A stretch of DNA of 64,000 bases, taken from contig NZ_SCHN01000005.1 of the NCBI RefSeq assembly GCF_004120195.1, positions 186,001 to 250,000 on the forward strand, in the 5' to 3' direction. This document shows, piece after piece, positions 271 to 64,000 of this stretch; within the stretch, counting starts at the first letter, position 1, and the number at the start of each line of letters is the position of its first letter. Source of the stretch: Enterovibrio baiacu. GTDB taxonomy: Bacteria > Pseudomonadota > Gammaproteobacteria > Enterobacterales > Vibrionaceae. A program made the translations under genes and the position numbers. Under the pieces are notes generated by a model. It saw only the letters and a list, made by a program, of their open reading frames with translations, had not been told where the DNA came from and ran no database searches.

Positions 271-297
271 AAAAGCGCGGGCGATTAGCCCGCTTTC
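271..297. terminator. Bidirectional terminator between FMN reductase and ureG
   Basis: A 6-bp GC stem (277-282 with 288-293) has a 5-nt loop that contains the ureG stop codon. It is flanked by A-rich sequence on the left and T-rich sequence on the right, so it can terminate both converging genes. Confidence 0.8.
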
Positions 298-905
298 TTT
301 AACATCCCCGCCGTCTCGATAAACGCAATAATGTCGCTCAACCCCTGCTTCTCTTTGAGATTGGTAAACACGTACGGTTTGTCTTTACGCATCCGCTTTG
401 TGTCAGCTTCCATCACGTTAAGATCTGCGCCAACATACGGGGCTAAATCTATCTTGTTGATGACTAACAGGTCTGAGCGGGTAATGCCGGGGCCACCTTT
501 GCGCGGGATCTTCTCCCCTTCGGCCACATCTATCACATAGATAGTCAGGTCAGCGAGTTCAGGGCTAAACGTTGCACTCAAGTTGTCGCCGCCACTTTCA
601 ACAAACACCACATCCAGATCTTTATGATGGCGCGCCAAACTGTCCACCGCCTCAAGGTTCATGGAAGCATCTTCCCTGATGGCGGTATGTGGACACCCGC
701 CGGTTTCGACACCCACAATACGGTCAGCATCCAAGGCTTGTGCTTCGGTAAGGATGCGCTGATCTTCGCGGGTATAAATGTCATTCGTGACCACGGCAAT
801 GCTGTAAGTGGTACGAATCGCTTTACACAATACTTCAAGCAATGCGGTCTTTCCTGACCCAACTGGACCACCCACCCCGACACGTAAAGGTTGTTTGTAG
901 CTCAT
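285..905 (-). CDS. ureG: Urease accessory GTPase UreG
   Basis: UreG is the SIMIBI-class GTPase that, with UreD and UreF, drives nickel insertion into apo-urease in the cytoplasm. The 206-residue product shows the P-loop GPVGSGKT near residue 12, the nickel-binding CPH motif ([13 protein letters not shown]), the FVESGGDNL segment and the NKID guanine-specificity motif. It lacks the long His-rich N-terminus found in some UreGs; here the poly-His is on UreE instead. The ATG at 905 is chosen because AAGGAG lies 8 nt upstream. The upstream in-frame ATG at 911 sits almost on that site. It is the last gene of the urt-ure operon, 33 bp after ureF. Confidence 0.97.
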
Positions 906-938
906 AATCATTCTCCTTAGCGCCTTAACCCTTGCGAG

Positions 939-1607
939 TTAAGACCGAAATAGTCGCGAATATTGTGTTTCATGCTGGCTAGAAGCGATCGCTTGTGCAG
1001 GCGCAAAGCCACCGACTTGATCATCCATCACATCATGTGAAGCAGCCACCACGTCACCAAGAACAGGCGTCAGTGCCAGCAGCACTTCCTGCCCAGCAGT
1101 TTGTCCTAATGGAATCAGCTTTACGCCAGCCATCACGGTATTTTCTAACCAACTCCAGATGTAACCTTCACACAGCGTTTCTTCATCGATGCCCCAACGA
1201 ACGCCCGCAAGCGCAAAGCCTGCAATCTGGCTTTTTCGTGCAATGTTCGCCCAAACGTCGCCCTCGTCGACCACTTTGAGTTGCTTAAGCAAGGTCAACA
1301 TGGTTCTGCCGCGCTGGATTTCTTCTTTCCTAAACTCCGCAGTTTCTCGACTGGCATACAACCATTGGCACCAGTACTCCGCCGCCTCAACATCGTGTGA
1401 TTCAAATGCACGATATAAACGCCGCAACACAGGCAATTCGAGGTATTGCATCGAATCAAACGCCAAGCTGTTTAACCAATCCGTTAAATCAGATTGGCTA
1501 CCTACCCATCCACACTCAATCGCCCACTCAAGCCCTTGGGAATAACTGAATGCACCGACGGGCAGAGACGGGCTAATGAGTTGAAACAGGCGATACTGTG
1601 CAGACAT
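939..1607 (-). CDS. ureF: Urease accessory protein UreF
   Basis: UreF forms the UreD-UreF-UreG activation complex and gates UreG's GTPase. The all-helical product (222 residues from ATG 1607) starts with the family signature LISPSLPVGAFSYSQGLEWA and carries the GVRWGIDEE and C-terminal VVAASHDVMDDQVGGFAPAQ segments. The longer open frame upstream to 1751 has no family similarity and overlaps the small exported protein, so the start at 1607 is preferred. The first 35 bp overlap the end of that small gene, suggesting translational coupling. Confidence 0.95.
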   Translation of the reverse strand: MSAQYRLFQLISPSLPVGAFSYSQGLEWAIECGWVGSQSDLTDWLNSLAFDSMQYLELPVLRRLYRAFESHDVEAAEYWCQWLYASRETAEFRKEEIQRGRTMLTLLKQLKVVDEGDVWANIARKSQIAGFALAGVRWGIDEETLCEGYIWSWLENTVMAGVKLIPLGQTAGQEVLLALTPVLGDVVAASHDVMDDQVGGFAPAQAIASSQHETQYSRLFRS

Positions 1608-1803
1608 CAGCAGAGGTCTCTTTTTCACTGTTTTTGCCCGCACAAGCGTTTGTCGTAACAACGCCGCCAGCATGATCATGCGTGACCGTGTTAACAATAG
1701 AATCGCCGCTGGCTGACTCTTTATGAGGGTGAGCCGATGCTGGCAGCGCAATTAAACCAATAAACGCTGCGCATACTGCAGCAAGTTGTGTTGTCTTCTT
1801 CAT
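1573..1803 (-). CDS. Small exported His-rich protein inside the urease operon
   Basis: This 76-residue product is not a known urease accessory protein that I recognise. From ATG 1803 (AAGGAAACG site ~8 nt upstream) it has a textbook Sec signal peptide: two lysines, a hydrophobic core and an ASA-HPH cleavage region. The predicted ~52-residue mature chain starts HPHKE, has a second HDH pair, a terminal His and two cysteines, so metal (nickel) binding in the periplasm is plausible. An in-frame ATG at 1857 directly abuts the ureE stop but would hide the signal peptide. The HPH after cleavage recalls HupE/UreJ nickel permeases, but there are no membrane helices after it. Real gene likely; role is inference. 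Confidence 0.7.
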   Translation of the reverse strand: MKKTTQLAAVCAAFIGLIALPASAHPHKESASGDSIVNTVTHDHAGGVVTTNACAGKNSEKETSADVCTVSPVSTH

Positions 1804-1857
1804 GTTTACGTTTCCTTGTTCATTATTTCTTTTTGCGAATGCTTTCTGTTGGTTCAT

Positions 1858-2325
1858 TCAGTGATGATGGTGATGCCCAGAGGAGTGACCGCCATATGCC
1901 CCTGCTTCTGGCTCAAACGGTGCCATTTCGACAACCACCGCTCCCCCCAACAAGCCCACCATTTCGTCGAGCACATGATCGTGTTGATAACGTACCCAGT
2001 CGTCACCGACTTGTAGCGGCACATGCCGGTTTCCAAGGTGATAACTCAATCTTGCTAACAGAAGCGGAGAATCGGCTTTCGCGGTTGATACTTTCTCTTC
2101 TGCCGCCACCACGCGGACATGTTCGCCCTCTGTGGAGACCAACACATCGCCATCGCGAAGCGTAATACCACGAGGAAGAAATAGGCCCGCATCTCGCCCA
2201 TCGTCTAAAGCCACCTTGATGCGACTTTTGATTCGCGCATCAATGCCCAAACTGACCGTGCCAGTGACAGGAGATGCGTGGTTTTTGTCATGTTCAGCAC
2301 TAATTCGCTGAGTGAATTCAATCAT
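1858..2325 (-). CDS. ureE: Urease nickel metallochaperone UreE
   Basis: UreE delivers Ni2+ to the UreDFG-apo-urease complex. The 155-residue protein has the N-terminal substrate-delivery domain (SRIKVALDDGRDAGLFLPRG) and the C-terminal metal-binding domain with LSYHLGNRHVPLQ and HDHVLDEM. It ends in a His tail (GGHSSGHHHHH), the classic nickel-storage tail. ATG 2325 is chosen because GGAGGTGAG lies 5-13 nt upstream; a GTG further up at 2337 is part of the ribosome site. It lies 12 bp after ureC. Confidence 0.96.
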   Translation of the reverse strand: MIEFTQRISAEHDKNHASPVTGTVSLGIDARIKSRIKVALDDGRDAGLFLPRGITLRDGDVLVSTEGEHVRVVAAEEKVSTAKADSPLLLARLSYHLGNRHVPLQVGDDWVRYQHDHVLDEMVGLLGGAVVVEMAPFEPEAGAYGGHSSGHHHHH

Positions 2326-2337
2326 TCTCACCTCCAC

Positions 2338-4041
2338 TTAAAATAAGAAATAACGCTGCGCCATTGGCAACACATCAGCGGGCTGACACACCAACAACTG
2401 TCCATCTGCGCGCACTTCATAAGTTTGTGGATCGACCTCAATGTTCGGTTGCCAGTCGTTGAGCTTCATGTCTTTTTTCCGAATCGTTCGACAGCCTTTC
2501 ACCGCACTGATACCACTTTGAAGTGCCAACATCTCGTGCACGCCGTTATCAATGGAAGACTGCGACATAAAGAGCAGTGAACTCGTTGCTGGGCCACGGC
2601 CATAGTTGCCAAACATTGGGCGATAATGCACAGGCTGAGGTGTAGGAATGGATCCGTTCGGGTCGCCCATCGGCGCAGTAACAATTAACCCACCTTTGAT
2701 AACCAATGACGGTTTCACACCGAAGAACGCAGGTTTCCAAAGCACCAAGTCTGCAAGTTTCCCTGCCTCAATCGATCCGATCTCGTGTGCCATGCCATGC
2801 GTGATGGCAGGGTTGATGGTGTATTTCGCGACATAACGTTTAATGCGTTGGTTATCGCTATGACTTGGGTCGCCTTCTAGTGCGCCAAACTGCACTTTCA
2901 TCTTGTGCGCGGTTTGCCACGTTCGGATCACCACTTCCCCCACACGCCCCATGGCTTGTGAGTCAGAAGAAATCATCGAGAAAGCGCCGAGATCGTGGAG
3001 AAGATCCTCGGCGGCGATGGTTTCACGGCGAATGCGCGATTCCGCAAAGGCGATGTCTTCGGCGATGGCGGGTGATAAGTGGTGACACACCATCAGCATG
3101 TCTAAGTGCTCGTCAACCGTGTTGACCGTGTAAGGACGGGTCGGGTTCGTTGAAGAAGGCAAGACATTCGCCAAGCCCGCGGCTTTGATAATGTCTGGTG
3201 CGTGACCACCGCCCGCCCCTTCGGTGTGGTAGGTATGAATAACACGATCACCGATCGCCGCTAAGGTCTCTTCCACAAAGCCACATTCGTTCAAGGTGTC
3301 CGTGTGAATCGCGACTTGCACATCGGTGGCTTCCGCGACCGACATACAGTTGTCGATGGCTGCGGGTGTCGACCCCCAATCTTCATGGAGTTTCAAGCCA
3401 CACGCGCCTGCGGCGACTTGTTCTTCAAGCGATTCGGGCAAACTCGCATTCCCCTTCCCTAACAAACCAAAGTTCATTGGGAAGGCATCCAGCGACTGCA
3501 GCATGCGATGAATGTTCCAAGGCCCCGGCGTACAAGTGGTTGCATTCGTGCCCGTGGCTGGGCCTGTGCCGCCGCCAACCATGGTCGTCACGCCTGACGT
3601 GAGCGCTTCGTCTATCTGTTGCGGGCAAATATAATGAATATGGGTATCAATGCCGCCAGCAGTGAGAATTTGACCTTCACCCGCGATCACCTCAGTACCC
3701 GGCCCAATCACAATGTCGATGCCATCTTGAATATCTGGGTTACCGGCTTTGCCAATAGCTTCGATACGCCCTGCTTTCACGGCGACATCGGCTTTTACAA
3801 TGCCCCAATAATCCAGCACCACCACATTGGTGATCACCAAATCCGGCGTTTCCGCACTCGGGCGCTGGCTTTGTCCCATGCCATCACGGATAGTTTTACC
3901 GCCGCCAAATTTCACTTCATCGCCATAGATGGTGAAGTCTTTCTCCACCTCCAACCAAAGCTCGGTATCAGCAAGACGTAAACAATCACCCGTTGTCGGG
4001 CCAAACATTTCGGCATATGCCTGACGTGAAATCTTCGCCAT
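2338..4041 (-). CDS. ureC: Urease alpha subunit UreC (catalytic)
   Basis: UreC is the catalytic subunit that hydrolyses urea to ammonia and carbamate. The 567-residue length is standard. Visible active-site elements are [10 protein letters not shown] (nickel histidines), GLKLHEDWG (the lysine that becomes the carbamate bridge), HTDTLNE and [15 protein letters not shown] (nickel-binding histidine), and the flap VCHHLSP with its cysteine and histidine. [11 protein letters not shown] supplies the conserved aspartate. ATG 4041 has AAGGAC 9 nt upstream. All catalytic residues I can check are present, so an active enzyme is expected once matured. Confidence 0.98.
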
Positions 4042-4042
4042 G

Positions 4043-4441
4043 TTAATCGTCCTTATCATCGGTTGGGTTGCTATTCACCGCGCTGGATGTGCCACTCGCA
4101 CCATCCAGAGCCCCCATCACGCGACCTTGAAAGCCATACACAATGCGTGTGCCCGCATACGCGACTAGCTCGACAGTTCGGCTTTGACCCGGCTCAAAAC
4201 GTACCGCGGTGCCTGACGCAATGTTTAAGCGAAACCCTTTGGCGGACGCTCGGTCGAACATGAGTGCATCGTTCACTTCATAAAAGTGATAGTGCGAACC
4301 AACCTGTATGGGGCGATCGCCTGTGTTTGCCACGTCCACCATCACTGTGGCGCGTCCCGCGTTAAGTTCAATTTCGCCGTCTTTTGCACGCAGTTCACCG
4401 GGCACAAAGCCATGAACTGCAGTTTGAGAACCGTGTGACAT
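4043..4441 (-). CDS. ureB: Urease beta subunit UreB
   Basis: UreB is the small structural beta subunit of the (UreABC)3 enzyme. The 132-residue product has the family start [13 protein letters not shown], the conserved [21 protein letters not shown] block and the C-terminal [10 protein letters not shown] short acidic and serine-rich tail of ~20 residues follows the conserved core and is probably disordered. The stop lies 1 bp before the ureC start, indicating coupled translation. Confidence 0.96.
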
Positions 4442-4450
4442 ATCAACACC

Positions 4451-4753
4451 TCACACTATGGGATCGTGAACGGTCACCAATTTGGTGCCATCAGGAAAAG
4501 TCACTTCAACTTGCACGTCGTGGATCATGCTCGGCACGCCGTCCATCACATCATCCACCGTGAGGATCGTGCGTCCAAAATCCATCAACTCTGCAACAGT
4601 GCGACCGTCTCTCGCGCCCTCCATAATGGCGGCGCTGATCAGGGCGACGGCTTCAGGGTAATTGAGCTTCAACCCTCGGTCTTTTCGCCGCTCTGCCAGC
4701 AATGCCGCCGTAAAGAGCATGAGTTTGTCTTTTTCTCGTGGGGTTAGCTCCAT
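4451..4753 (-). CDS. ureA: Urease gamma subunit UreA
   Basis: UreA is the 100-residue gamma subunit. It begins [20 protein letters not shown] and contains [21 protein letters not shown] and [17 protein letters not shown]-type sequence, all diagnostic. The ribosome site GAGGAG is 7 nt before the ATG. It opens the structural trio ureABC, 9 bp ahead of ureB, and lies 103 bp after ureD, the widest gap within the ure part of the operon. Confidence 0.97.
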
Positions 4754-53367: not shown

Positions 53368-54741
53368 CTACCGCTGCCGCGATCGAATGGGCGTTAACAA
53401 TTCAAAAGACACGGAGTGAACATCACCTGTGTCCGTCACCTTTACATCTCGGATGATTTCTGGCCCGGCGGAATAATAGAATTCGGAATGGCGATTTAAG
53501 TAGTGATAAAAACGTTCAATGTCGCTGTCGATATCTGAGAAGTTTTCCCCTTTCCAAGTAGAGGTAAGGTAGCAACCTTCAATGCTCATTGAATGGCACT
53601 CGGGTTGAAGTTCTGCCTGTTGGAGGCTTTTCTCTAAACCCGCAAAGAACACATCAAATTGTGCGTCGTAATGCGCCGAAGGGTCGCCAAACACCATCAT
53701 GCCCTCTTCGTTATTTGCGATGAGGTGTGTCCATGACGGGAATGCGTCGAACACTGACGCGATGCGCCGCGTGCCTGCATGCTTTTCTTTTGGTAGCGAA
53801 TGCCGCGAGACGGGAATGTCGATCAGGTTTAATGAGATGACGCTGACGGGAAAGGCATCAACATGCGTGAGCGTCTGTTTGGAGGCATCAAAGGGCTCGA
53901 CGGCAAAGCTAAATGTTAATCCTGTGTCACTTGTTCCCCAGCAATAGGGCAAAGGGCCAAAGCGTAAGTGATGCTCTTCTTTTAATCGGATACCGAGATG
54001 AAAATACACCGCTTCGATGTATTCCGTTGAAGGTACGTCAATGGAGCCAATGTGACGTTCTGGCACAATCGCTTCAAACAAGGTGTCAGGAATAACAAAG
54101 TCGTCATCCACCTGAAAACCTATCGCCAAAGGAAACAACCCGCTGGCATATTGGTTGTGTTCTGAGAACTCGAGTATTCGGCATCGCGTGAAATCTAACG
54201 CTCCTTGGTTCGCATCCAGGTTCACCTGCTGCCGTAAGTGGGTAAAACCCGCTTCAACCCGCTCATCAATCACGGTCGCATCTCGGTCAATCGAATCGAT
54301 GCGAATGGCGGAACACGCCCAACGGGAAGCAGGCTGGGTGTCGAATCGAATGTCGGACTGATTCAGCAGGCTTAATCGTTCTAGCGCCGTTTTATCCATC
54401 TCTGCCAGTGACAATCGCTTTGCCCATACGGGTTGCTGTCGGATGTTTTTTGGGGCAACCATCGCAAACCGTTTGAATGCACGGGCAAAGGCTTCTTGAG
54501 ATTCAAAACCAAACTCAATGGCGATGTCGAGAATGCGATGGTCTGTGGTCGCAATTTTTTCGGCGGCGAGACTGAGCAAACGGTGGCGTTGATATTGACT
54601 AAGGCTCATCCCGGTTGCGCGCTTGAATTGACGTTGTAAGTGCCAGCGTGAATAGCCGCTGCGCGCTGCAATCTGCTCGACACGCAAAGTCTCTGGCAGC
54701 GAATCCTCAATCAGAGCGATCACCGATAAAATCGTGTTCAT
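53368..54741 (-). CDS. AraC family regulator with two tandem GyrI-like domains
   Basis: The 457-residue product has an N-terminal AraC double helix-turn-helix (LRVEQIAARSGYSRWHLQRQFKR and RILDIAIEFGFESQEAFARAFKR, residues ~20-105). Two GyrI-like effector domains in tandem follow (~130-285 and ~290-455). Most relatives have one, so this protein is about 150 residues longer. The start is uncertain between 54741 and 54759. It may sense amphipathic or cationic ligands, as GyrI-like domains do. No adjacent target gene stands out. Confidence 0.87.
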   Translation of the reverse strand: MNTILSVIALIEDSLPETLRVEQIAARSGYSRWHLQRQFKRATGMSLSQYQRHRLLSLAAEKIATTDHRILDIAIEFGFESQEAFARAFKRFAMVAPKNIRQQPVWAKRLSLAEMDKTALERLSLLNQSDIRFDTQPASRWACSAIRIDSIDRDATVIDERVEAGFTHLRQQVNLDANQGALDFTRCRILEFSEHNQYASGLFPLAIGFQVDDDFVIPDTLFEAIVPERHIGSIDVPSTEYIEAVYFHLGIRLKEEHHLRFGPLPYCWGTSDTGLTFSFAVEPFDASKQTLTHVDAFPVSVISLNLIDIPVSRHSLPKEKHAGTRRIASVFDAFPSWTHLIANNEEGMMVFGDPSAHYDAQFDVFFAGLEKSLQQAELQPECHSMSIEGCYLTSTWKGENFSDIDSDIERFYHYLNRHSEFYYSAGPEIIRDVKVTDTGDVHSVSFELLTPIRSRQR

Positions 54742-54904
54742 GTTGCGTCCATCATCCATTGCGATGCAGCAAATCTACCCCAAGTCATTATATTTAATGC
54801 GGTTATCCGCGTTCGACATACGTTTTCTGCGAAAAGGTTCTCGTGAATGGCTCTTGTGAATTGCTCTTGTAAACGTAGGGCTTGCTGCACAAAACTCGAC
54901 TTAT

Positions 54905-54930
54905 AAAAAAGCCCGCTGAATAAGCGGGCT
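54905..54930 (-). terminator. Terminator of guaD
   Basis: AGCCCGCT/AGCGGGCT (54910-54917 with 54923-54930), followed by six Ts on the minus strand, 32 bp after the guaD stop. Confidence 0.85.
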
Positions 54931-54961
54931 GTCTTTCCATATCAATGCGGTGACAAAAGCC

Positions 54962-56332
54962 TTAGCGCACTTGTTTGCCTTGCACCCAAACTTTGCTGAT
55001 GTTGTCTGTTTGAGAGAGTGAAATGATCTTCTCAAGGATATCCCGCGGCGAATCCATATCAGGCCAAACGCGCAGGTTACCGCGTTCACTGTCTGGCGAA
55101 ACCACAATGGCGTCGAAGTGATACTCTGGCGCAAACACACCAACTTTCTCATTCAATACCTGACCACCGCCATTGGTTGCCATCCAGAAAGATTCCAAGT
55201 AGCTGATACGTGAGCCTGATACGCCACGTTTGTCAGCGGGTAGATGACAATCCACACCGTCTTCACGCACACGAGAATGCGTTACCGCATCAAAACACGC
55301 GCGGAAGATTGATGGAGACGGAGCGCCCGCGATGTCACTGCCTAAACCCACACGTACATTTGCGTCTAGTAGTTCGCGGGTTTGCATGGCGGCGTTGGCA
55401 AAATACATGTTCGACAACGGACAGTGACCTATACCTGCGCCGAACTGGTTCAACATCGCGATGTCTTTTTCGTCGATAAAGATCGAATGTGCTAACACCG
55501 ATTTGTTGTTCAACAACCCTGCTTCTGCATAAATCGCAATGTCGCTCATGCCATAACGTTCAATGCTGTAATCACGCGCCCAGTCGCTCTCTGAACAGTG
55601 GGTTTGCATGTGCAGGTCATATTTCTGAACCAATTTGCCCAAGCCTTTGAGCATAGGATCAGTGCAACTCGGTACAAAACGTGGCGTAATCACCGGCTTC
55701 ACCAGCCCGCCTTCATTGCCCGCCAAGCCGCGCACGTTATTCACGAACAGTTCTGTTTCGAAAAGCGCTTGTTCAACACTGCTTTCGCGGTAGAAATCAG
55801 GACACTGTTCTTGGTTGTCCATATTGACCTTGCCGACGAACGCGCGCTGACCCAATTCCAAACACGATTGGGCGAGCACTTCCGTGGATTCACGGTGAAT
55901 CGAGGCGAAGTAAACCGCACTGGTTGTGCCGTTTGCCAACAAAGTGCGGCTCACGTCTTGGTAAATGTTTGTAGCGAAGGCGTTGTCGGCATAACGGTTT
56001 TCAAGTGGGAACGTGTAATTCTGAAGCCAATCGAACAGTGGCAGATCCAGCCCCTTTCCTGCTTGCGGCCATTGCGGTGCATGACAATGCAAATCCACCA
56101 ACCCTGGCATCAAGTATTGGCCTTTTGGTAGCACCTCTAATTTACCCGACTCACGCAGTGCCACCACCATGTCTGCATGGCGTGGATCATCCGCTTTCGC
56201 TGTGTCGGCGATATCACCTTGGTGATTCACCAAGATCAGAAAATCGACATTGAATTCAAAGTCGCCTTTAACAGGACAATGGAAAGTATCAGCCAACAAG
56301 GCAAAGCGCAGCGTAGTGAAATCAATCATCAT
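54962..56332 (-). CDS. guaD: Guanine deaminase
   Basis: GuaD converts guanine to xanthine and ammonia. The 456-residue amidohydrolase has the zinc motif VDLHCHAPQWPQAG, the family-specific PLFDWLQNYTFPLENRYAD, a QTHCSES strand, LAHSIFIDEKD and the metal aspartate in GLGSDIAGAPSPSIF. It lies 139 bp behind the purine permease gene in the same direction, so guanine or xanthine uptake and deamination are probably coordinated. Confidence 0.95.
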   Translation of the reverse strand: MMIDFTTLRFALLADTFHCPVKGDFEFNVDFLILVNHQGDIADTAKADDPRHADMVVALRESGKLEVLPKGQYLMPGLVDLHCHAPQWPQAGKGLDLPLFDWLQNYTFPLENRYADNAFATNIYQDVSRTLLANGTTSAVYFASIHRESTEVLAQSCLELGQRAFVGKVNMDNQEQCPDFYRESSVEQALFETELFVNNVRGLAGNEGGLVKPVITPRFVPSCTDPMLKGLGKLVQKYDLHMQTHCSESDWARDYSIERYGMSDIAIYAEAGLLNNKSVLAHSIFIDEKDIAMLNQFGAGIGHCPLSNMYFANAAMQTRELLDANVRVGLGSDIAGAPSPSIFRACFDAVTHSRVREDGVDCHLPADKRGVSGSRISYLESFWMATNGGGQVLNEKVGVFAPEYHFDAIVVSPDSERGNLRVWPDMDSPRDILEKIISLSQTDNISKVWVQGKQVR

Positions 56333-56471
56333 TCTTTCTTCAATAAAGTGTGTTAATGAATGCGCTATCCAAGGAGAACCTCGCTCACTTGAATAGCCAA
56401 GGGCTCACCGAAGCAAGCCCTAAAATTAGGTGTGTATTACAAGCAGATTCAAACCAATAAGTTATAGTGCG

Positions 56472-57791
56472 CTACTTTCCTGCTTCTTCAGCGTTTTCCA
56501 ATTCGGATGGGTTGCTCGGTAAAACGAAGTTCAAGATCACTGCAGCGAGCGCGCCAATGGCAATGCCCGAGTTCACCATGTAGCCCGCCATTTCTGGTAA
56601 GGCATACACCAACTCACGTGGCATCAATACCGCGCCCAATGACAACATGATCGGCAACCCTACGACCAGCATGTTGCGCTCGTTCAATTGAATGTGTTGG
56701 ATAACGCGGAAACCGTTCATCGCAATCACCACACAAATAACAGAGAAGATGCCAGAAATCACGGCATGAGGGACAGACGCAATTAAGCTGGTCAGCTTCG
56801 GCACCAAGCCGAGGATAAGAAGGATCACACCACCAGCAATAATGGCACGACGCGAAGAGACACCTGTGACGGCAATAATGCCCGCGTTGGTTGAGTAGCC
56901 TGTGACTGGGCTACCACCAAGCAATGAACACACAAAGTTACCCGCGGCTTCGCCCGTTGCCCCACGGTTCAGGCGTTCGTCGTCGAGTTCAACGCCTGTC
57001 ACTGCACTGATTGCACACCATGTCCCTGTGGTTTCTACCAACACAATCATGGCGATGAATAGCATGGTCAGGATAGCCATTGGCTCGAATGTCAATTCAC
57101 CAAACGGCAGCAACGATGGCAGTTGTAACCATGATGATGCGCCGACGGCAGAGAAATCTGCCATGCCATAAAATGCAGCGACTAAGGTGCCGATCACAAT
57201 CGCGCCAATCACCGATGCTAAGCGCAGCCAGTGAAGTGATTTAAAGAAGCACCCTAGCAGGATAAACGATGACAACGACACCATGCTGGTTAACGCGATC
57301 ACGATGTTTTCAGTTGGGCGCTCACCAGAGTAGATCCCATTGAATGCCACTGGCAACAGGGAAATTCCGACCACGATGATGACCGTTCCGCCCACAATCG
57401 GTGGGACAAAACGTTTCACCAATTTGCTGAACAGGTTGGCAGGCTTGCCCAGCAGCGCAACGAATATTGCCACCGGGATCATCGCGCCATACACCGCGCC
57501 CATGCCCATGGTTTTGCCAATCGCCGCGATTGCGCCGATGGGAATGTAGGAAGGCCCCTGCATCACGGGCATTTTCAGTAGTAAGCCAGACTGAATAATG
57601 GTCGCGATACCCGCCACAATGAAGGTCATTTGAATCAAAGAGGAGGTGTCTGAAACGGAAAGAGATAAAAGACCGGCGAGAATAATAGGCACGATGTAGA
57701 GATCCATCGCCAGCACATGTTGTGCCCCAAGGGAAAAAGAGGTCGGAATGGAGATCTTTTCGTCGATATGCGCAAGCGTTGTATTTTTCAT
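56472..57791 (-). CDS. NCS2 family nucleobase (xanthine/uracil type) permease
   Basis: The 439-residue inner-membrane symporter has ~12-14 helices and the NCS2 signatures QGPSYIPIGAIAAIG, FVPPIVGGTVIIVVG and MIVLVETTGTWCAIS. The last glutamate region and GGSPVTGYSTNAGIIAVTGVSSR (the substrate-site motif) resemble xanthine/urate transporters. Given its place ahead of guaD, a purine such as xanthine or guanine is the likely substrate. A PurR box overlaps its promoter. Confidence 0.92.
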   Translation of the reverse strand: MKNTTLAHIDEKISIPTSFSLGAQHVLAMDLYIVPIILAGLLSLSVSDTSSLIQMTFIVAGIATIIQSGLLLKMPVMQGPSYIPIGAIAAIGKTMGMGAVYGAMIPVAIFVALLGKPANLFSKLVKRFVPPIVGGTVIIVVGISLLPVAFNGIYSGERPTENIVIALTSMVSLSSFILLGCFFKSLHWLRLASVIGAIVIGTLVAAFYGMADFSAVGASSWLQLPSLLPFGELTFEPMAILTMLFIAMIVLVETTGTWCAISAVTGVELDDERLNRGATGEAAGNFVCSLLGGSPVTGYSTNAGIIAVTGVSSRRAIIAGGVILLILGLVPKLTSLIASVPHAVISGIFSVICVVIAMNGFRVIQHIQLNERNMLVVGLPIMLSLGAVLMPRELVYALPEMAGYMVNSGIAIGALAAVILNFVLPSNPSELENAEEAGK

Positions 57792-58051: not shown

Positions 58052-59800
58052 TTATTGCGCTGACAAGTACCCTCTCCAGCCCCCAAATTCGGAGATGTCT
58101 TTTGCACCCTCAGCACCTGCTTGTTCGCAGATAAAGCCAGTAACCCAGGAGCCATCATCCAGCTCGACCTTTCCTAGGCCAAGCGGATTGGGAATACCCA
58201 AAAGAAAATCACCGATGCGCTGAGTGGGCACTTCCCACAGTTCCATTTCGATACTTTCTCCCTCGCCGCTCTGACGCACCATGCCCGGACGCTTTGGCCC
58301 CTCACCTGCCAATGCATAGAATCGATAGGCTTTCGCACTTTTTCGTTGACTCACGAGCGTTGCACCTCGTTCGAGCAGTTGGTGATTAAGAGGAAGCCCT
58401 TCCATGTGCGCCCCACACACGGCGAGCGTGATGGTGTTTGGCGCCGTATCCGGCACAATGAATGGCGATTGTTCCACGTAAGCGCTGGCAAGCCCCATCA
58501 ATTTGTGTTCTGTGCCTTTGTCAGAAAACAACGTAACACCGAACGGAAGCCGCGCGACGCCGCTGTCGGCAGGAAAAGCAATGGCTGCGTAGTCCAATAA
58601 GTTCATAAAGTTGGTGTAGTAACCCAAGTTCGTGTTGAGAGCGATGGGATCTGATTTCATTTCCTCAATGGTATACGTTGTTCCCACTGTCGGTGTAAGA
58701 ATGGCATCCACCGAGCAAATGATGGCGTCACATTTCTTTTTCAGGGCGCGAAGCTCATATTGCGCAGTAAACGCATCGACTGCCGTTAAGTGTCTCGCAC
58801 CACCCAGAATTGCCTGAATTTCAGGGACGCAGGATGTTTCATGGTCATCAAAGAAGGATTGAATCGCGGCATATCGCTCTGCAACCCAAGGGCCGTGATA
58901 CAAGAGTTTGGCGGCTTCAAGAAACGGCGCGAAATCCACTTCAATTAATTCCGCCCCCAATGCTTCAACCTGCGCTTTACTTTTTTCGAATCGATTGGCG
59001 AAATCTTCGTTACCAAAGAAAGCAAGCTGCGCGTTTGCTGGCACCCCGATGCGCGGCTTTTCACCCAAGTAGGTGTTCGCTTCACTCGATGAGAAATCAC
59101 GGGCGTAGGCATCAGAAGGATCGTATTGACCCGCAATAGGCAGAAGCGTTTCTATGTCATCAACAGAGTGAGCAAAAATGGTCACGCAGTCTAGCGTTCG
59201 ACAAGCAGGCACCACGCCTTGGCAGCTCAAGCGCCCTATGCTCGCTTTCATGCCAACCAATTGGTTAAGCGCGGCAGGCACACGCCCGGATCCCGCGGTA
59301 TCTGTACCTAGCGAAAACAGCACTTGGTTTGTCGCCACAGACACCGCGCTTCCGGAGCTTGAACCTCCCGAAATAAACCGCGGATCGATGCTGTTTTTGC
59401 ACGCGCCCCAAGGGCTTCGCGTACCCACTAACCCCGTCGCAAATTGGTCTAAGTTTGTTTTTCCTAGCGGCACTGCGCCCGCATCAATCAAGGCCTTCAC
59501 CACAAAGGCAGAGTCACCCGGAGAATAAGCAAACTCTTTGCTGCCCGCCGTGGTAGAAAGTCCCATGAGGTCGATATTGTCTTTAATGGCAAAAGGCACA
59601 CCGAACAGAGGCTTTTGGGTGATATCAGACTGCGCAAGGGCACGCACATAGCCGTCTAATTGCGCTTCGCTGATAAGGCTTATCCAACAGTTGTGGCTAT
59701 CAAACTTTGCTTTGTTCCACTGCTGACGGAGAAACACATCCGGTGTGGTTTCCCCCCTCTTATACGCCGCCAGAAGCTCGCGAATTGAGTTAAATTCCAT
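58052..59800 (-). CDS. atzF: Allophanate hydrolase (AtzF/DUR2-like)
   Basis: This enzyme hydrolyses allophanate to two ammonia and two CO2. The 582-residue product has an amidase-signature domain (~1-440) with the catalytic lysine in PFAIKDNIDLMG and Ser-cisSer-Lys region GGSSSGSAVSVATNQ. The C-terminal domain (~465-580) is typical of allophanate hydrolases (ERGATLVSQRKSAKAYRFYAL, PNPLGLGKVELDDGSWVTGFICE). Its start overlaps the carboxylase stop (TAATG), so the two are translationally coupled. It serves the last step of either urea or guanidine breakdown. Confidence 0.95.
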   Translation of the reverse strand: MEFNSIRELLAAYKRGETTPDVFLRQQWNKAKFDSHNCWISLISEAQLDGYVRALAQSDITQKPLFGVPFAIKDNIDLMGLSTTAGSKEFAYSPGDSAFVVKALIDAGAVPLGKTNLDQFATGLVGTRSPWGACKNSIDPRFISGGSSSGSAVSVATNQVLFSLGTDTAGSGRVPAALNQLVGMKASIGRLSCQGVVPACRTLDCVTIFAHSVDDIETLLPIAGQYDPSDAYARDFSSSEANTYLGEKPRIGVPANAQLAFFGNEDFANRFEKSKAQVEALGAELIEVDFAPFLEAAKLLYHGPWVAERYAAIQSFFDDHETSCVPEIQAILGGARHLTAVDAFTAQYELRALKKKCDAIICSVDAILTPTVGTTYTIEEMKSDPIALNTNLGYYTNFMNLLDYAAIAFPADSGVARLPFGVTLFSDKGTEHKLMGLASAYVEQSPFIVPDTAPNTITLAVCGAHMEGLPLNHQLLERGATLVSQRKSAKAYRFYALAGEGPKRPGMVRQSGEGESIEMELWEVPTQRIGDFLLGIPNPLGLGKVELDDGSWVTGFICEQAGAEGAKDISEFGGWRGYLSAQ

Positions 59801-62800
59801 TAAATAGTCTCCATAATTAACAAGGTTTGCCCTGCTCGCACTTGCTCACCTTCTGATTTCGCAAAGTCCACCACGCGCCCAGCTTGTGTCGCCGCAATTT
59901 CGATTTCCATTTTCATGGATTCAACAATCAGCAAAGGCTGTCCCACTTCCACCACGTCTCCGGGCTTCGCCAAGAACTGCCACACGTTGCCTGCCAATTG
60001 GCTATTCACGGCAAATTGCCCGTCTTCCAATGCGTCTTCATTCGATTCGACAGCATCGGCTAATTCCGCGACAAAGTTCGCTTGTCCACTCTCTTCCCAG
60101 CGTTGGCGTTCCTCGTTGAATGCGCCTTGTTGTTGGGTCTTAAAGGCAGAAATCGAGGCATGTTCCTGCGTCAGCATGGCTTCGTAGTCGGCGATACCAA
60201 ACTGTGTTTCTTCAATGCGAAGATCGAATTTACCTTTAGGGAAATCGCGGCGAATTTTCGTGAGTTCGTCATGGGAAACGGGATAGAAGCGGATTTGGTC
60301 GAAAAAGCGCAGCAGCCAAGGTTTATCGAAGGCTTTTCCTTTGCCATAGCGATTCCACATCTGCAGGGTTCGCCCCATAAGCTGGTAACCGCCCGGCCCT
60401 TCCATGCCATAGACACACATATACGCGCCACCGATGCCGACAGCATTTTCAGGTGTCCACGTTCTTGCGGGGTTGTACTTGGTGGTCACTAAGCGATGGC
60501 GAGGATCGATAGGCGTGGCGACAGGAGCACCAAGGTAGACATCCCCCAAGCCCATCACGAGATAGCTGGCATCAAAAACGATGTCCTTCACCGCATCGAT
60601 GCTTTCCAGCCCATTAATTCGTCGTATAAATTCGATGTTATTTGGACTCCAAGGCGCATCCTTTCGCACCACCTCGTCGTACTTTCTCATCGCCAGTTGG
60701 ATCGAAGGATCATCCCAAGACAGCGGCAAATGCACGATACGAGACGGCACGGTTAAGTCCGCAATATCACCAATTGCAGCTTCTGCATTTTCAAGCAACT
60801 CAAGCATGTCAGCACAAGGCGTAAGAAGGTTGTTGTAGTGCACTTGTAGCGAGCGAATGCCCGGCGTGAGCTCCTTGATTGACGGAATCGCGAGGTTTTC
60901 CAGTGTGGTCATCAAAGCATGAACGCGAAATCGTAACTTCACATCCAACACTTGCTCGCCATATTCCACCAACAGGAAATCTTCACCGCTTGGGCGATAC
61001 ACCACTTTCTCGCCGTAAACATCGGCACTGATTTCTTTAATAACTGCGGAGGTAATCTCGTCCTTTTCAAGGTGCAACTCGTCGTTTCGAAGATGTTTAA
61101 TGGCTTTCTGCTGGTGATATTCAGCCGCTTCTGCATCCGCCATGCTCACAGGCTTAAAACGGATTTTATCCCCGGCTTTCAACTGCCCCATTTTCCACAA
61201 ATCGGCTTTAATCACCGTCGCAGGACAAACAAAACCGCCAAGGCTTGGGCCATCGGGTCCTAAGATCACTGGCATGTCACCAGTAAAATCCACCGTGCCG
61301 ACGGCATAGGCATTGTCATGAATGTTTGAAGGATGAAGCCCCGCTTCGCCGCCGTCTTTACGCGCCCAAGTGGGTTTCGGGCCTATGAGTCGAACACCCG
61401 TGCGGCTTGAGTTGAAATGCACTTCCCATTCAGCATCAAAGAAATCCTCAATGTCTTGGTCCGTGAAAAAATCAGGCGCGCCGTGGGGACCATAAATCAC
61501 GCGAAGGGTTTGGGTGGCAGCAAAGTCCAACGGCGCAATGGCCTTTCCAATGGACTCTTGTGCATCGCGCTCTGATTTTGGTGATGGCGCTTCAATGTGC
61601 AGCACGTCACCAGCTATTAATGCTCGTCCGCCATGTCCGCCAAACTTACCCAGCGTGAAGGTTGAACGGCTTCCTAAATATGTCGGGCATTGAATGCCCT
61701 CTTTCACCAACAAATAGGCGCGCGCACCTTCACCAGACACAGCCCCAAGCGCCAGCACATCGCCTTTGTTCACAGCAATGACCGTCCACATTGGCACGTC
61801 GTTACCGTTCAGCGTTGCGCTGATTTTTGCCCCTGTAATGGCAATGGTGGTGCTTTGATTAAAACTGAGCGTTGGCCCATTGGCGATGATTTCTAGCCCT
61901 GCGCTTTGTTCTATATTTCTCAGCAGTTGATTACCCAACCGGAAGCTTTGGCTGTCCATTGGCCCTGACGGTGGAATGCCGACATGCCAATACCCGCTGC
62001 GACCGGGATAATCTTGCACCGTGGTTTGCGTGCCACTTGCCAATACATCAATGGTTGCGGGCTGGTAATCAAATGTAGAAAGGCTTGATGTCAGCACATC
62101 GCCGCGATGAACGAAGGGTTCTGCGGATAACTGTGTGAGATACGCCAAGTTGGTTTCAATGCCATACAGTTCTGTGTGGCTTAATAGGTGCGTCATCTGC
62201 GATAGCGCTTCGTCTCGGTTATCAGCGTGCACCATCAACTTCGCGATCATAGGGTCAAAGAACGGGCTTACCTCGCAACCCGCTTCTACCCACGTGTCCA
62301 CCCGAACGGCATTGCCATTATCAAGCTCACTGATGCCATGACCAGACACCCCTTCAGGGAAAGCCAAATGCGTGATCAAGCCCGTTGAAGGCTGAAACTG
62401 TCGATTCGGATCTTCCGCATACAAGCGAAACTGAATCGCATGCCCAGAAGGTGTGGCCGTTGATGCCGCGTTCCAACTCGCTTGATACGTACCCATACCA
62501 ATTTCGACCATCAGTTTTACGATATCGACACCAAAGATAAGCTCAGTCACACCGTGCTCAACTTGCAGGCGCGTGTTGACCTCTAAGAAGTAGAATTGCT
62601 GGGTCGATTGATCGAGGATGAATTCCACCGTGCCAGCGTTTCGATAGTTCACAGACGCGGCCAAGCGAATGGCGGTGTCACGCAACGCGGCGCGGGTATC
62701 GTCCGAGAGGTTTGGCGCTGGCGTTTCTTCCATCACCTTTTGGTTTCGCCGTTGCGCCGAACAATCTCGTTCACCTAGCGCCAACACGCTGCCTTCGCCA

Positions 62801-63444
62801 TCACCAATGATTTGCACTTCGATGTGACGTGCAGAGGTGATGAACTTCTCCATAAACACCCCGCTGTGGCTGAAGTTGGCTTCGCCCAGTCGTTTGACAG
62901 CCTCGAACGCATCGACCAACTGTGCTGCATTCTCACACAATCGCATGCCAATGCCGCCGCCGCCCGCGGTGCTTTTCAGCATCACGGGGAATCCCATGCT
63001 GTCTGCGGCTGCAACAGCATCTTCAATGCCGGAAAGCAGCCCTGTTCCGGGCAATAAAGGAACATTTGCCGATTCCGCGAGTTCACGTGCGGTGTGCTTG
63101 AGTCCGAACTGATTAATTTGTTCTGTTGTCGGGCCAAGAAATGCGATGCCAGCGGCTTCACACGCTGCGACAAAATCGGGGTTTTCGCTTAGAAATCCGT
63201 AGCCAGGATGAATGGCTTGAGCGCCAGAGGAACGCGCAATACCGATGATTTTTTGAATATTTAGGTAAGTATCAGAGGCACTGCCTTCGCCCAAGCTAAA
63301 AGCTTCCGACGCATTGAGTGTATGCAGGCTGCCTGCATCGTCTTCGTGGTAAACCGCCACGCTCGCGATGCCCATTTCATCCAGTGTTCGGATAATGCGG
63401 GTTGCGATAGCGCCACGGTTAGCAATCAATATTTTTGTGAACAT
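59800..63444 (-). CDS. Biotin-dependent urea/guanidine carboxylase
   Basis: The 1214-residue enzyme has a biotin carboxylase domain (~1-450; ATP-grasp TAGGGGIGMRL, ALGERDCSAQRRNQKV), a carboxyltransferase region of the KipI/KipA type (~465-1090; SGYWHVGIPPSGPMDSQ, GGEAGLHPSNIHDNAYA, ILGPDGPSLGGFVCPATV) and a C-terminal biotin carrier with VESMKMEIE (biotinyl Lys1178). Such proteins are usually named urea carboxylase. The upstream DUF1989 gene and the ACGA-loop hairpins in the leader point to guanidine as substrate, with carboxyguanidine then deiminated to allophanate. The ribosome site at 63444 is weak (GAAGAC), compatible with riboswitch control. Confidence 0.93.
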   Translation of the reverse strand: MFTKILIANRGAIATRIIRTLDEMGIASVAVYHEDDAGSLHTLNASEAFSLGEGSASDTYLNIQKIIGIARSSGAQAIHPGYGFLSENPDFVAACEAAGIAFLGPTTEQINQFGLKHTARELAESANVPLLPGTGLLSGIEDAVAAADSMGFPVMLKSTAGGGGIGMRLCENAAQLVDAFEAVKRLGEANFSHSGVFMEKFITSARHIEVQIIGDGEGSVLALGERDCSAQRRNQKVMEETPAPNLSDDTRAALRDTAIRLAASVNYRNAGTVEFILDQSTQQFYFLEVNTRLQVEHGVTELIFGVDIVKLMVEIGMGTYQASWNAASTATPSGHAIQFRLYAEDPNRQFQPSTGLITHLAFPEGVSGHGISELDNGNAVRVDTWVEAGCEVSPFFDPMIAKLMVHADNRDEALSQMTHLLSHTELYGIETNLAYLTQLSAEPFVHRGDVLTSSLSTFDYQPATIDVLASGTQTTVQDYPGRSGYWHVGIPPSGPMDSQSFRLGNQLLRNIEQSAGLEIIANGPTLSFNQSTTIAITGAKISATLNGNDVPMWTVIAVNKGDVLALGAVSGEGARAYLLVKEGIQCPTYLGSRSTFTLGKFGGHGGRALIAGDVLHIEAPSPKSERDAQESIGKAIAPLDFAATQTLRVIYGPHGAPDFFTDQDIEDFFDAEWEVHFNSSRTGVRLIGPKPTWARKDGGEAGLHPSNIHDNAYAVGTVDFTGDMPVILGPDGPSLGGFVCPATVIKADLWKMGQLKAGDKIRFKPVSMADAEAAEYHQQKAIKHLRNDELHLEKDEITSAVIKEISADVYGEKVVYRPSGEDFLLVEYGEQVLDVKLRFRVHALMTTLENLAIPSIKELTPGIRSLQVHYNNLLTPCADMLELLENAEAAIGDIADLTVPSRIVHLPLSWDDPSIQLAMRKYDEVVRKDAPWSPNNIEFIRRINGLESIDAVKDIVFDASYLVMGLGDVYLGAPVATPIDPRHRLVTTKYNPARTWTPENAVGIGGAYMCVYGMEGPGGYQLMGRTLQMWNRYGKGKAFDKPWLLRFFDQIRFYPVSHDELTKIRRDFPKGKFDLRIEETQFGIADYEAMLTQEHASISAFKTQQQGAFNEERQRWEESGQANFVAELADAVESNEDALEDGQFAVNSQLAGNVWQFLAKPGDVVEVGQPLLIVESMKMEIEIAATQAGRVVDFAKSEGEQVRAGQTLLIMETI

Positions 63445-63462
63445 AATGCTGTCTTCGTGTCA

Positions 63463-63542
63463 TCGGGTCGTCCCGAATAAAGACGGAGGATGTGCGACAT
63501 CAAAAATCTTCGTTCTTGGCGATGTTGCTCAGGGTCGTCCCT
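63463..63542 (-). ncRNA. Candidate guanidine-II (mini-ykkC) riboswitch
   Basis: In the minus-strand transcript two hairpins occur in order: AGGG-ACGA-CCCT (63542-63531) and TCGGG-ACGA-CCCGA (63476-63463). Both have the ACGA (ACGR) tetraloop closed by GGG/CCC, the defining feature of the guanidine-II riboswitch, in which the two loops kiss around guanidine. The second hairpin is 18 nt before the carboxylase ATG. A linker GTCTT (63484-63480) can pair with AAGAC (63455-63451), which is part of the weak ribosome site, giving a plausible off state. The 54-nt linker is longer than usual, which lowers certainty. Confidence 0.8.
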
Positions 63543-63588
63543 TTCCTCTTCAGAAACTGTGTTTACGCTGTGCTTTGTTTAACGCACC

Positions 63589-64000
63589 TTACGCCGCATC
63601 CCAAATCGCGATTTCAATCGGCGTTGGGTTGTAGGCATTGCAGGGATTGTTTAACTGCGGGCAATTAGAGACCAAAACAATCACGTTCATGTTGGCTTCA
63701 AGCTCAACATATTTGCCCGGCGCGCTGATGCCATCAGCAAAAGTCAACCCGCCTTCATCCGTCACAGGAACGTTCATGAAGAAGTTGATGTTGTGGCCGA
63801 TGTCGCGCTTAGAAAGCCCAAACTCAGGGCGTTCTGAAACGGCGAGCAACCATGAATCTCTGCACGCGTGCATGCAGCGTTTCTCTGGGGCGTAACGCAC
63901 CGTGTTGCTCTCTGTCGAGCAGGCACCACCGAGGGTGTCATGGCGGCCACAGGTATCCGCAACAATGCTAAGCATCGGCTGGTTTAAGTTCGACAGCAGC
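63589..64000 (-). CDS. Urea carboxylase-associated (DUF1989) protein, C-terminal part
   Basis: The frame is open to the right edge of the window; ~137 C-terminal residues are seen. [62 protein letters not shown] and [23 protein letters not shown] are strong matches to the DUF1989 urea-carboxylase-associated proteins. In guanidine operons two such proteins (CgdA and CgdB) form carboxyguanidine deiminase; this looks like one of them, probably the second. The conserved cysteines are present. It is 144 bp ahead of the carboxylase. Confidence 0.88.

Follow-up and report, generated by a model that had tools for sequence, protein, structure and literature searches.

A probable guanidine-II riboswitch of unusual form before the carboxylase gene of Enterovibrio baiacu

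The gap between cgdB and the downstream carboxylase gene of Enterovibrio baiacu very probably carries a genuine riboswitch of the guanidine-II class (mini-ykkC, RF01068), judging from sequence comparison with its relatives. Its structural form is unusual and, within the 329 genomes of the family Vibrionaceae, was seen in Enterovibrio only. The class, its ligand and the layout of operons with two riboswitches are already known and published. The new structural point is that the apparent linker between the two hairpins of carboxylase leaders would be made of a P1 bulge, which is able to grow, and a short true linker, which is not.

The stretch of DNA analyzed here (the window) comprises 64,000 nucleotides of contig NZ_SCHN01000005.1. 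The sequence GGGACGACCC occurs twice on its minus strand (63541-63532 and 63474-63465), and both copies lie within the 144 nt that separate the stop of cgdB from the carboxylase start (63588-63445, minus strand). They form two hairpins closed by GGG/CCC with ACGA in both loops, as an earlier note on this DNA had described, in agreement with the two hairpins, ACGR tetraloops and G+C-rich closing stems of guanidine-II. The two matches to GGGACGRCCC are the only ones found in the window, which bears out the claim that it holds no further copies; 0.09 matches are expected from shuffled sequences, one of 100 shuffles contained two or more, and none of 100 contained a pair with a spacer of 50-70 nt. 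The two 10-mers are 57 nt apart, and the carboxylase start lies 20 nt past the 10-mer of P2. The elements of the leader are as follows.

63463-63548, minus strand: guanidine-II aptamer region, made up of P1 (its lower stem and insertion included), the linker and P2
63544-63548, minus strand: 5' strand of the P1 lower stem, GAGGA, with covariation in relatives
63531-63542, minus strand: upper hairpin of P1, A-GGG ACGA CCC-U
63491-63530, minus strand: 40-nt insertion forming the 3' bulge of P1, with a predicted hairpin at 63494-63528
63486-63490, minus strand: 3' strand of the P1 lower stem, TCCTC
63477-63485, minus strand: actual linker between the bases of P1 and P2, CGTCTTTAT
63480-63484, minus strand: GTCTT in the linker, putative anti-Shine-Dalgarno sequence
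63463-63476, minus strand: P2 hairpin, TCGGG ACGA CCCGA
63451-63456, minus strand: GAAGAC, probable ribosome-binding site of the carboxylase gene, 7-12 nt before the ATG

A close match to the carboxylase was present in 13 of 150 sampled genomes of the family, including E. baiacu itself. The hairpin pair precedes the start codon in 11 of the 12 other loci, each of which also carries a guanidine-I match above the cut-off. The twelfth locus (L028) has neither riboswitch; its carboxylase, of 53% identity, comes after a frame for an allophanate hydrolase, and inspection by eye of its list of frames of at least 150 amino acids revealed no UAAP-like frame. A search of 329 family genomes found pairs spaced 7-37 nt apart in 32 genomes and pairs spaced 38-68 nt apart in four, all of them Enterovibrio and E. 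baiacu among them. Of these 36 pair sites 34 were fetched as loci, with G694 and G696 left out of the gene check, and the carboxylase lies behind the pair in 33 of the 34, the own locus included. Thus, the hairpins are kept before the carboxylase in orthologous loci; poor conservation there would, by the earlier note, have spoken against the assignment. In all 33 carboxylase loci the first ATG follows the end of P2 by 17-21 nt. In the remaining locus (L183) the frame behind the guanidine-II pair starts with MSWLVLI and presumably encodes an exporter of the SugE/Gdx type; its genome showed no guanidine-I match. Two genomes contain a second, higher-scoring guanidine-II match (G131:C12:166160-166206 and G647:C35:713943-713987, with 48.3 and 46.4 bits, respectively). 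In L190 and L191, one of which is E. norvegicus FF-33, the start region of the carboxylase gene is repeated in one or two extra in-frame copies of 18 nt giving two or three successive start codons, the first of which keeps the usual 20 nt from P2.

Rfam models applied at their gathering cut-offs reported nothing at the gap. A scan at loose thresholds of the 601-base stretch 63200-63800 gave guanidine-II as the sole match, with 18.5 bits against a cut-off of 32, and no guanidine-II match over the Rfam cut-off was found in the whole 5.37-Mb genome. We treated the gathering score as a detection threshold and not as a defining trait of the class, and built a covariance model (R1) from an alignment (A1) of 16 relatives, four of them Enterovibrio, from which the window copy was left out. 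R1 matched the held-out window copy over its full length with 49.6 bits (E 1.3e-14) as the only match in the window; in the genome this copy was the one strong match (E 1.2e-12), the next best having an E-value of 0.215, all of these E-values being rough owing to a short calibration. The scan with a covariance model proposed in the earlier note thus stayed below the cut-off with the Rfam model but succeeded with the one made from relatives. On the strength of the shuffles, the conservation and the held-out model, we rejected chance or an artefact of coding sequence as the origin of the hairpins.

Among the relatives, 21 of 34 pass the Rfam cut-off at the pair (the SugE-type case L183 left out, and G694, one of the 21, counted without a check of the gene behind its pair). 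Outside the genus 21 of 27 pass and six fail, and in Enterovibrio none of the eight copies (seven relatives and the own) reaches the cut-off, probably because of the enlarged P1 bulge. The assignment to guanidine-II made in the earlier note is upheld by the score of the held-out model, by the relatives over the Rfam cut-off, by the conserved hairpins and by the gene context.

The explanation for the unusual spacing appears to lie in P1. In predicted folds, the purine stretch GAGGA preceding the P1 hairpin pairs with TCCTC inside the raw linker, thus forming a lower stem of P1. We use this term since the name P0 denotes another helix in print (PMC9561414). The lower stem was analyzed in 17 dereplicated representatives of the 33 carboxylase loci. 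The best helix score averaged 13.4 compared to 8.7 with shuffled linkers, and none of 2000 shuffles scored as high; random re-pairing of loci reached the cognate value in 10 of 20000 cases. The raw linker of the representatives varies between 22 and 57 nt (standard deviation 12.2), whereas the lower-stem helix stops 9-13 nt (standard deviation 1.03) ahead of the P2 GGG, and none of 2000 shuffles was as narrow. In a duplex-energy test the mean beat all 5000 permutations (p 0.0002), with the cognate linker unsurpassed as a partner in only 5 of 17 loci. In A1, three of the five lower-stem pairs are changed on both sides, and 80.5% of the cells are paired in an alignment that is one column off in several rows at this stem. 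The covariation score of the whole structure, the number of paired cells and the number of cells changed on both sides were each higher than in all 500 shuffles, and six of the 500 reached the number of pairs changed on both sides; further standard pair types numbered 9 compared to 11.1 in shuffles, lower than in all 500.

When at most one unpaired nucleotide is allowed on the 5' side, a register rule set after the data had been seen, 32 of the 33 loci share one register, and L191, with a bulge of 42 nt, takes a competing helix. Without the rule, near-duplicate loci (L165, L173, L179, L187 and L191) chose another helix. The 3' bulge of P1 is 5-8 nt in all 25 Vibrionaceae loci outside Enterovibrio and 14, 14, 14, 20, 34, 35, 40 and 42 nt in the eight Enterovibrio loci, the 40-nt bulge being that of E. 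baiacu. This leaves a linker of 7-11 nt in 32 of the 33 loci, with L191 as the exception. In the own copy, 9 nt would separate the P1 lower stem from the base of P2, if the lower stem forms. The earlier note had called a linker of 54 nt unusually long. The raw length is real, with 57 nt between the 10-mers, from which 54 results when the outer A-U pair of P1 and the two outer pairs of P2 are counted as stem, but most of it would be P1 insertion and the real linker would be short. The raw spacing also exceeds the linker range of 7-40 nt in print (PMC7544219), in contrast to the 9 nt that would remain with the lower stem formed.

In other families of the order, R1 had matches in 41 of 295 genomes. 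A carboxylase match lies behind 22 of the 29 further loci fetched outside the family, and 20 of these 22 have a putative lower stem with a bulge of 4-7 nt, the two without it being L217 and L222. When the GTDB collection was scanned for spacers of 41-71 nt, at least 117 stretches came up; among those listed, the pair stands directly before a carboxylase match in one, L039 from Enterovibrio norvegicus FF-33. Many of the other long-spacer matches come from Actinomycetes and would seem to be chance occurrences. Since some of the stretches are short, further long-spacer cases may exist among them as well as elsewhere.

Folding of the P1 element in five of the eight Enterovibrio loci predicted a hairpin in the bulge in all five, making a three-way junction in P1 of this genus plausible. 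We lean slightly towards such a junction, in which a bulge of 5-8 nt would have expanded to a length of 14 to about 40 nt and gained an extra hairpin while the distance from the base of P1 to P2 stayed fixed. Compared to shuffles, the whole P1 element was of modest stability, with z values of -1.13 (own), -2.45 (L189), -1.68 (L190), -1.75 (L158) and -0.82 (L161), and the insert of the own copy alone had -0.91. With its long insertion, low Rfam score and a P1 element barely better than shuffles (26 of 200 folded as well), the E. baiacu pair could be regarded as a relic that has stopped switching in Enterovibrio. We give this reading hardly any credence, as the lower stem changes on both sides with pairing kept, and both 10-mers are exact in the eight Enterovibrio loci despite an insertion that varies. 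These loci were found by a pattern requiring the 10-mers, but the seven relatives among them are also all the in-genus genomes of the family sample with a close carboxylase. The guanidine-II riboswitch with a bulged P1 remains the preferred reading.

The earlier note had placed the pair inside an operon, between the DUF1989 gene and the carboxylase gene, and this position proved correct, with the operon head about 4.3 kb upstream and provided with a guanidine-I riboswitch. The genes next to the pair are listed here.

63589-64000, minus strand: cgdB (UAAP2/DUF1989), cut by the window end and complete at L003:4590-5234
59800-63444, minus strand: gca, guanidine carboxylase, matching the NCBIfam 'urea carboxylase' model TIGR02712 with 1807 bits (cut-off 1304)
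58052-59800, minus strand: atzF, allophanate hydrolase, overlapping gca

The binding protein (TIGR03427), UAAP1, UAAP2, the carboxylase and the allophanate hydrolase of the operon all scored over curated cut-offs; UAAP1 and UAAP2 are presumably CgdA and CgdB. The guanidine-I riboswitch (RF00442) precedes the gene of the binding protein at L003:8858-8994 on the minus strand, with 77.2 bits against a cut-off of 63. It lies outside the window, about 3.9 kb past its end and 4,316 nt upstream of the pair, and is the only guanidine-I match in the genome at E ≤0.001. Of the 35 relatives with the pair, 34 have guanidine-I over the cut-off, the exception being the genome of L183, and in those 34 it shares contig and strand with the pair, which it precedes by 4,199-4,400 nt. 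The matched length of guanidine-I is 126-145 nt in the eight Enterovibrio genomes and 97-122 nt in 27 other genomes of the family, so that this first riboswitch, too, appears enlarged in Enterovibrio. No terminator-like site was found after the guanidine-I aptamer on the minus strand of L003:8650-9260 by a simple consensus scan; an intrinsic terminator is the usual expression platform of guanidine-I (PMC12186494).

The carboxylase has been named guanidine carboxylase, followed in the pathway by the carboxyguanidine deiminase CgdA/B (PMC12186494, PMC12508155). From its neighbours and this literature, the substrate of gca would be guanidine rather than urea. The window also carries genes for urease alpha, beta and gamma and for UreE and UreG (NCBIfam; 285-4753, minus strand), so that the genome possesses urease genes in addition to the route through carboxylase and allophanate hydrolase. 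Their presence at the other end is in keeping with a carboxylase for which urea breakdown creates no need. An Rfam match to 5_ureB_sRNA (3609-3888, plus strand, 91 bits against a cut-off of 40) is antisense to the urease alpha gene (2338-4059) and may be mere conserved protein-coding sequence. After atzF, a gene for a purine/pyrimidine-permease-like protein, a guanine deaminase gene and a gene for an AraC-type regulator (53368-57791, minus strand) appear to constitute a purine-use cluster adjoining the guanidine operon.

A similar operon has been described in Vreelandella boliviensis, where Gd-I is at the head and Gd-II lies between cgdB and gca together with an ABC transporter and the same enzyme genes; in-line probing gave apparent KD values of 44 µM for Gd-I and 93 µM for Gd-II (PMC12508155, Sinn et al. 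2025). In contrast to E. baiacu, in which gca and atzF overlap, mgdH and mgdL stand between these two genes in V. boliviensis (PMC12508155). Likewise, in Raoultella terrigena, Erwinia rhapontici and Klebsiella michiganensis the genes of an importer and carboxyguanidine deiminase go with Gd-I and those of the carboxylase and allophanate hydrolase with Gd-II, and the passages covered make no mention of a P1 insertion (PMC12186494). Rfam RF01068 shares the two hairpins, the ACGR loops and the G+C-rich stems with our element, but its P1 stem runs through 8 bp without a break before a 14-nt linker begins, whereas the P1 of E. baiacu is split by the 40-nt 3' bulge and scores below the cut-off. No description of an enlarged P1 bulge was found among the literature listings and passages covered; a bulged P1 may already feature in Sherlock 2017, in which the class was validated, or in Sinn 2021, on the pathway.

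That the ligand is guanidine is suggested both by the neighbouring genes and by the guanidine-I riboswitch heading the operon. Sensing of another compound, such as methylguanidine or urea, is a thought encouraged by the V. boliviensis Gd-II, which binds methylguanidine besides guanidine (PMC12508155), and by the urease genes in the window. It is nevertheless very improbable: both loops are ACGA on G+C-rich stems, the feature of guanidine-II (PMC5486947), the operon is headed by guanidine-I, the Pseudomonas aeruginosa copy gave no response to urea (PMC9561414), and the overlap of gca and atzF leaves no room for mgdH and mgdL.

With guanidine as the ligand, the guanidine-II element would control how gca, and probably also atzF with which it overlaps, is translated in an operon headed by guanidine-I. 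The ribosome site of gca would be masked without guanidine; two guanidinium ions would bind on contact between the ACGA loops of the two hairpins, and binding would free the site, so that the large biotin enzyme would be made only when guanidine is present. Isolated hairpins of the class, when crystallized, contain two guanidine sites where loop meets loop (PMC5486947); in 2020, proof that P1 and P2 of a single RNA make this contact was stated to be still lacking (PMC7544219). A simple scan detected no terminator-like site and no minus-strand promoter-like site in the gap, and a separate promoter or terminator there was discarded. This result, together with the constant short distance between P2 and the ATG, favours translational control on sequence grounds.

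As for the means of masking, the earlier note had proposed that GTCTT of the linker pairs with AAGAC of the ribosome site. The two segments (63484-63480 and 63455-63451) can pair in the own sequence, and the folds predicted for L158, L160, L189 and L190 contain a corresponding helix around P2. In the family at large, however, the proposal found no backing: pairing between linker and downstream sequence in the 17 representatives was -6.82 kcal/mol for cognate and -6.49 kcal/mol for non-cognate partners (p 0.24), and the opening energy of the Shine-Dalgarno sequence relative to shuffled linkers had a mean z of -0.14 over 16 representatives, all but L180. Individual z values were 2.71 for L189 and 1.72 for L190, two Enterovibrio relatives that stand out, 1.21 for L166 and 0.46 for the own locus, and fell below -1 in five loci outside Enterovibrio. 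Thus, family-wide anti-Shine-Dalgarno pairing by the linker is unsupported in both tests, the duplex re-pairing and the opening energy, and masking by GTCTT:AAGAC is a weakly supported mechanism. This lack of conservation of the pairing as such would suit an aptamer whose main effect is on RNA stability or on Rho-dependent termination between cgdB and gca, and control of mRNA level and of translation can be linked (PMC12508155). We consider this unlikely, since the end of P2 lies 17-21 nt before the first ATG at every carboxylase locus, as expected for translational control, and a translational action has been measured for the class in P. aeruginosa, where guanidine raises translation initiation in vitro (PMC9561414).

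Control of translation is the mode we prefer for this guanidine-II riboswitch. The Rfam model misses the eight Enterovibrio copies and six of the 27 other copies of the family, and class counts derived from it are probably too low. If the proposed P1 architecture is true, the length of the linker would be under tight geometric constraint, and part of the published 'variable linker' would be a variable P1 bulge. The insertion could then add a second input, such as a protein, an RNase or an RNA partner, and the family would offer a natural series of bulges from 5 to about 40 nt for testing loop contact against geometry.
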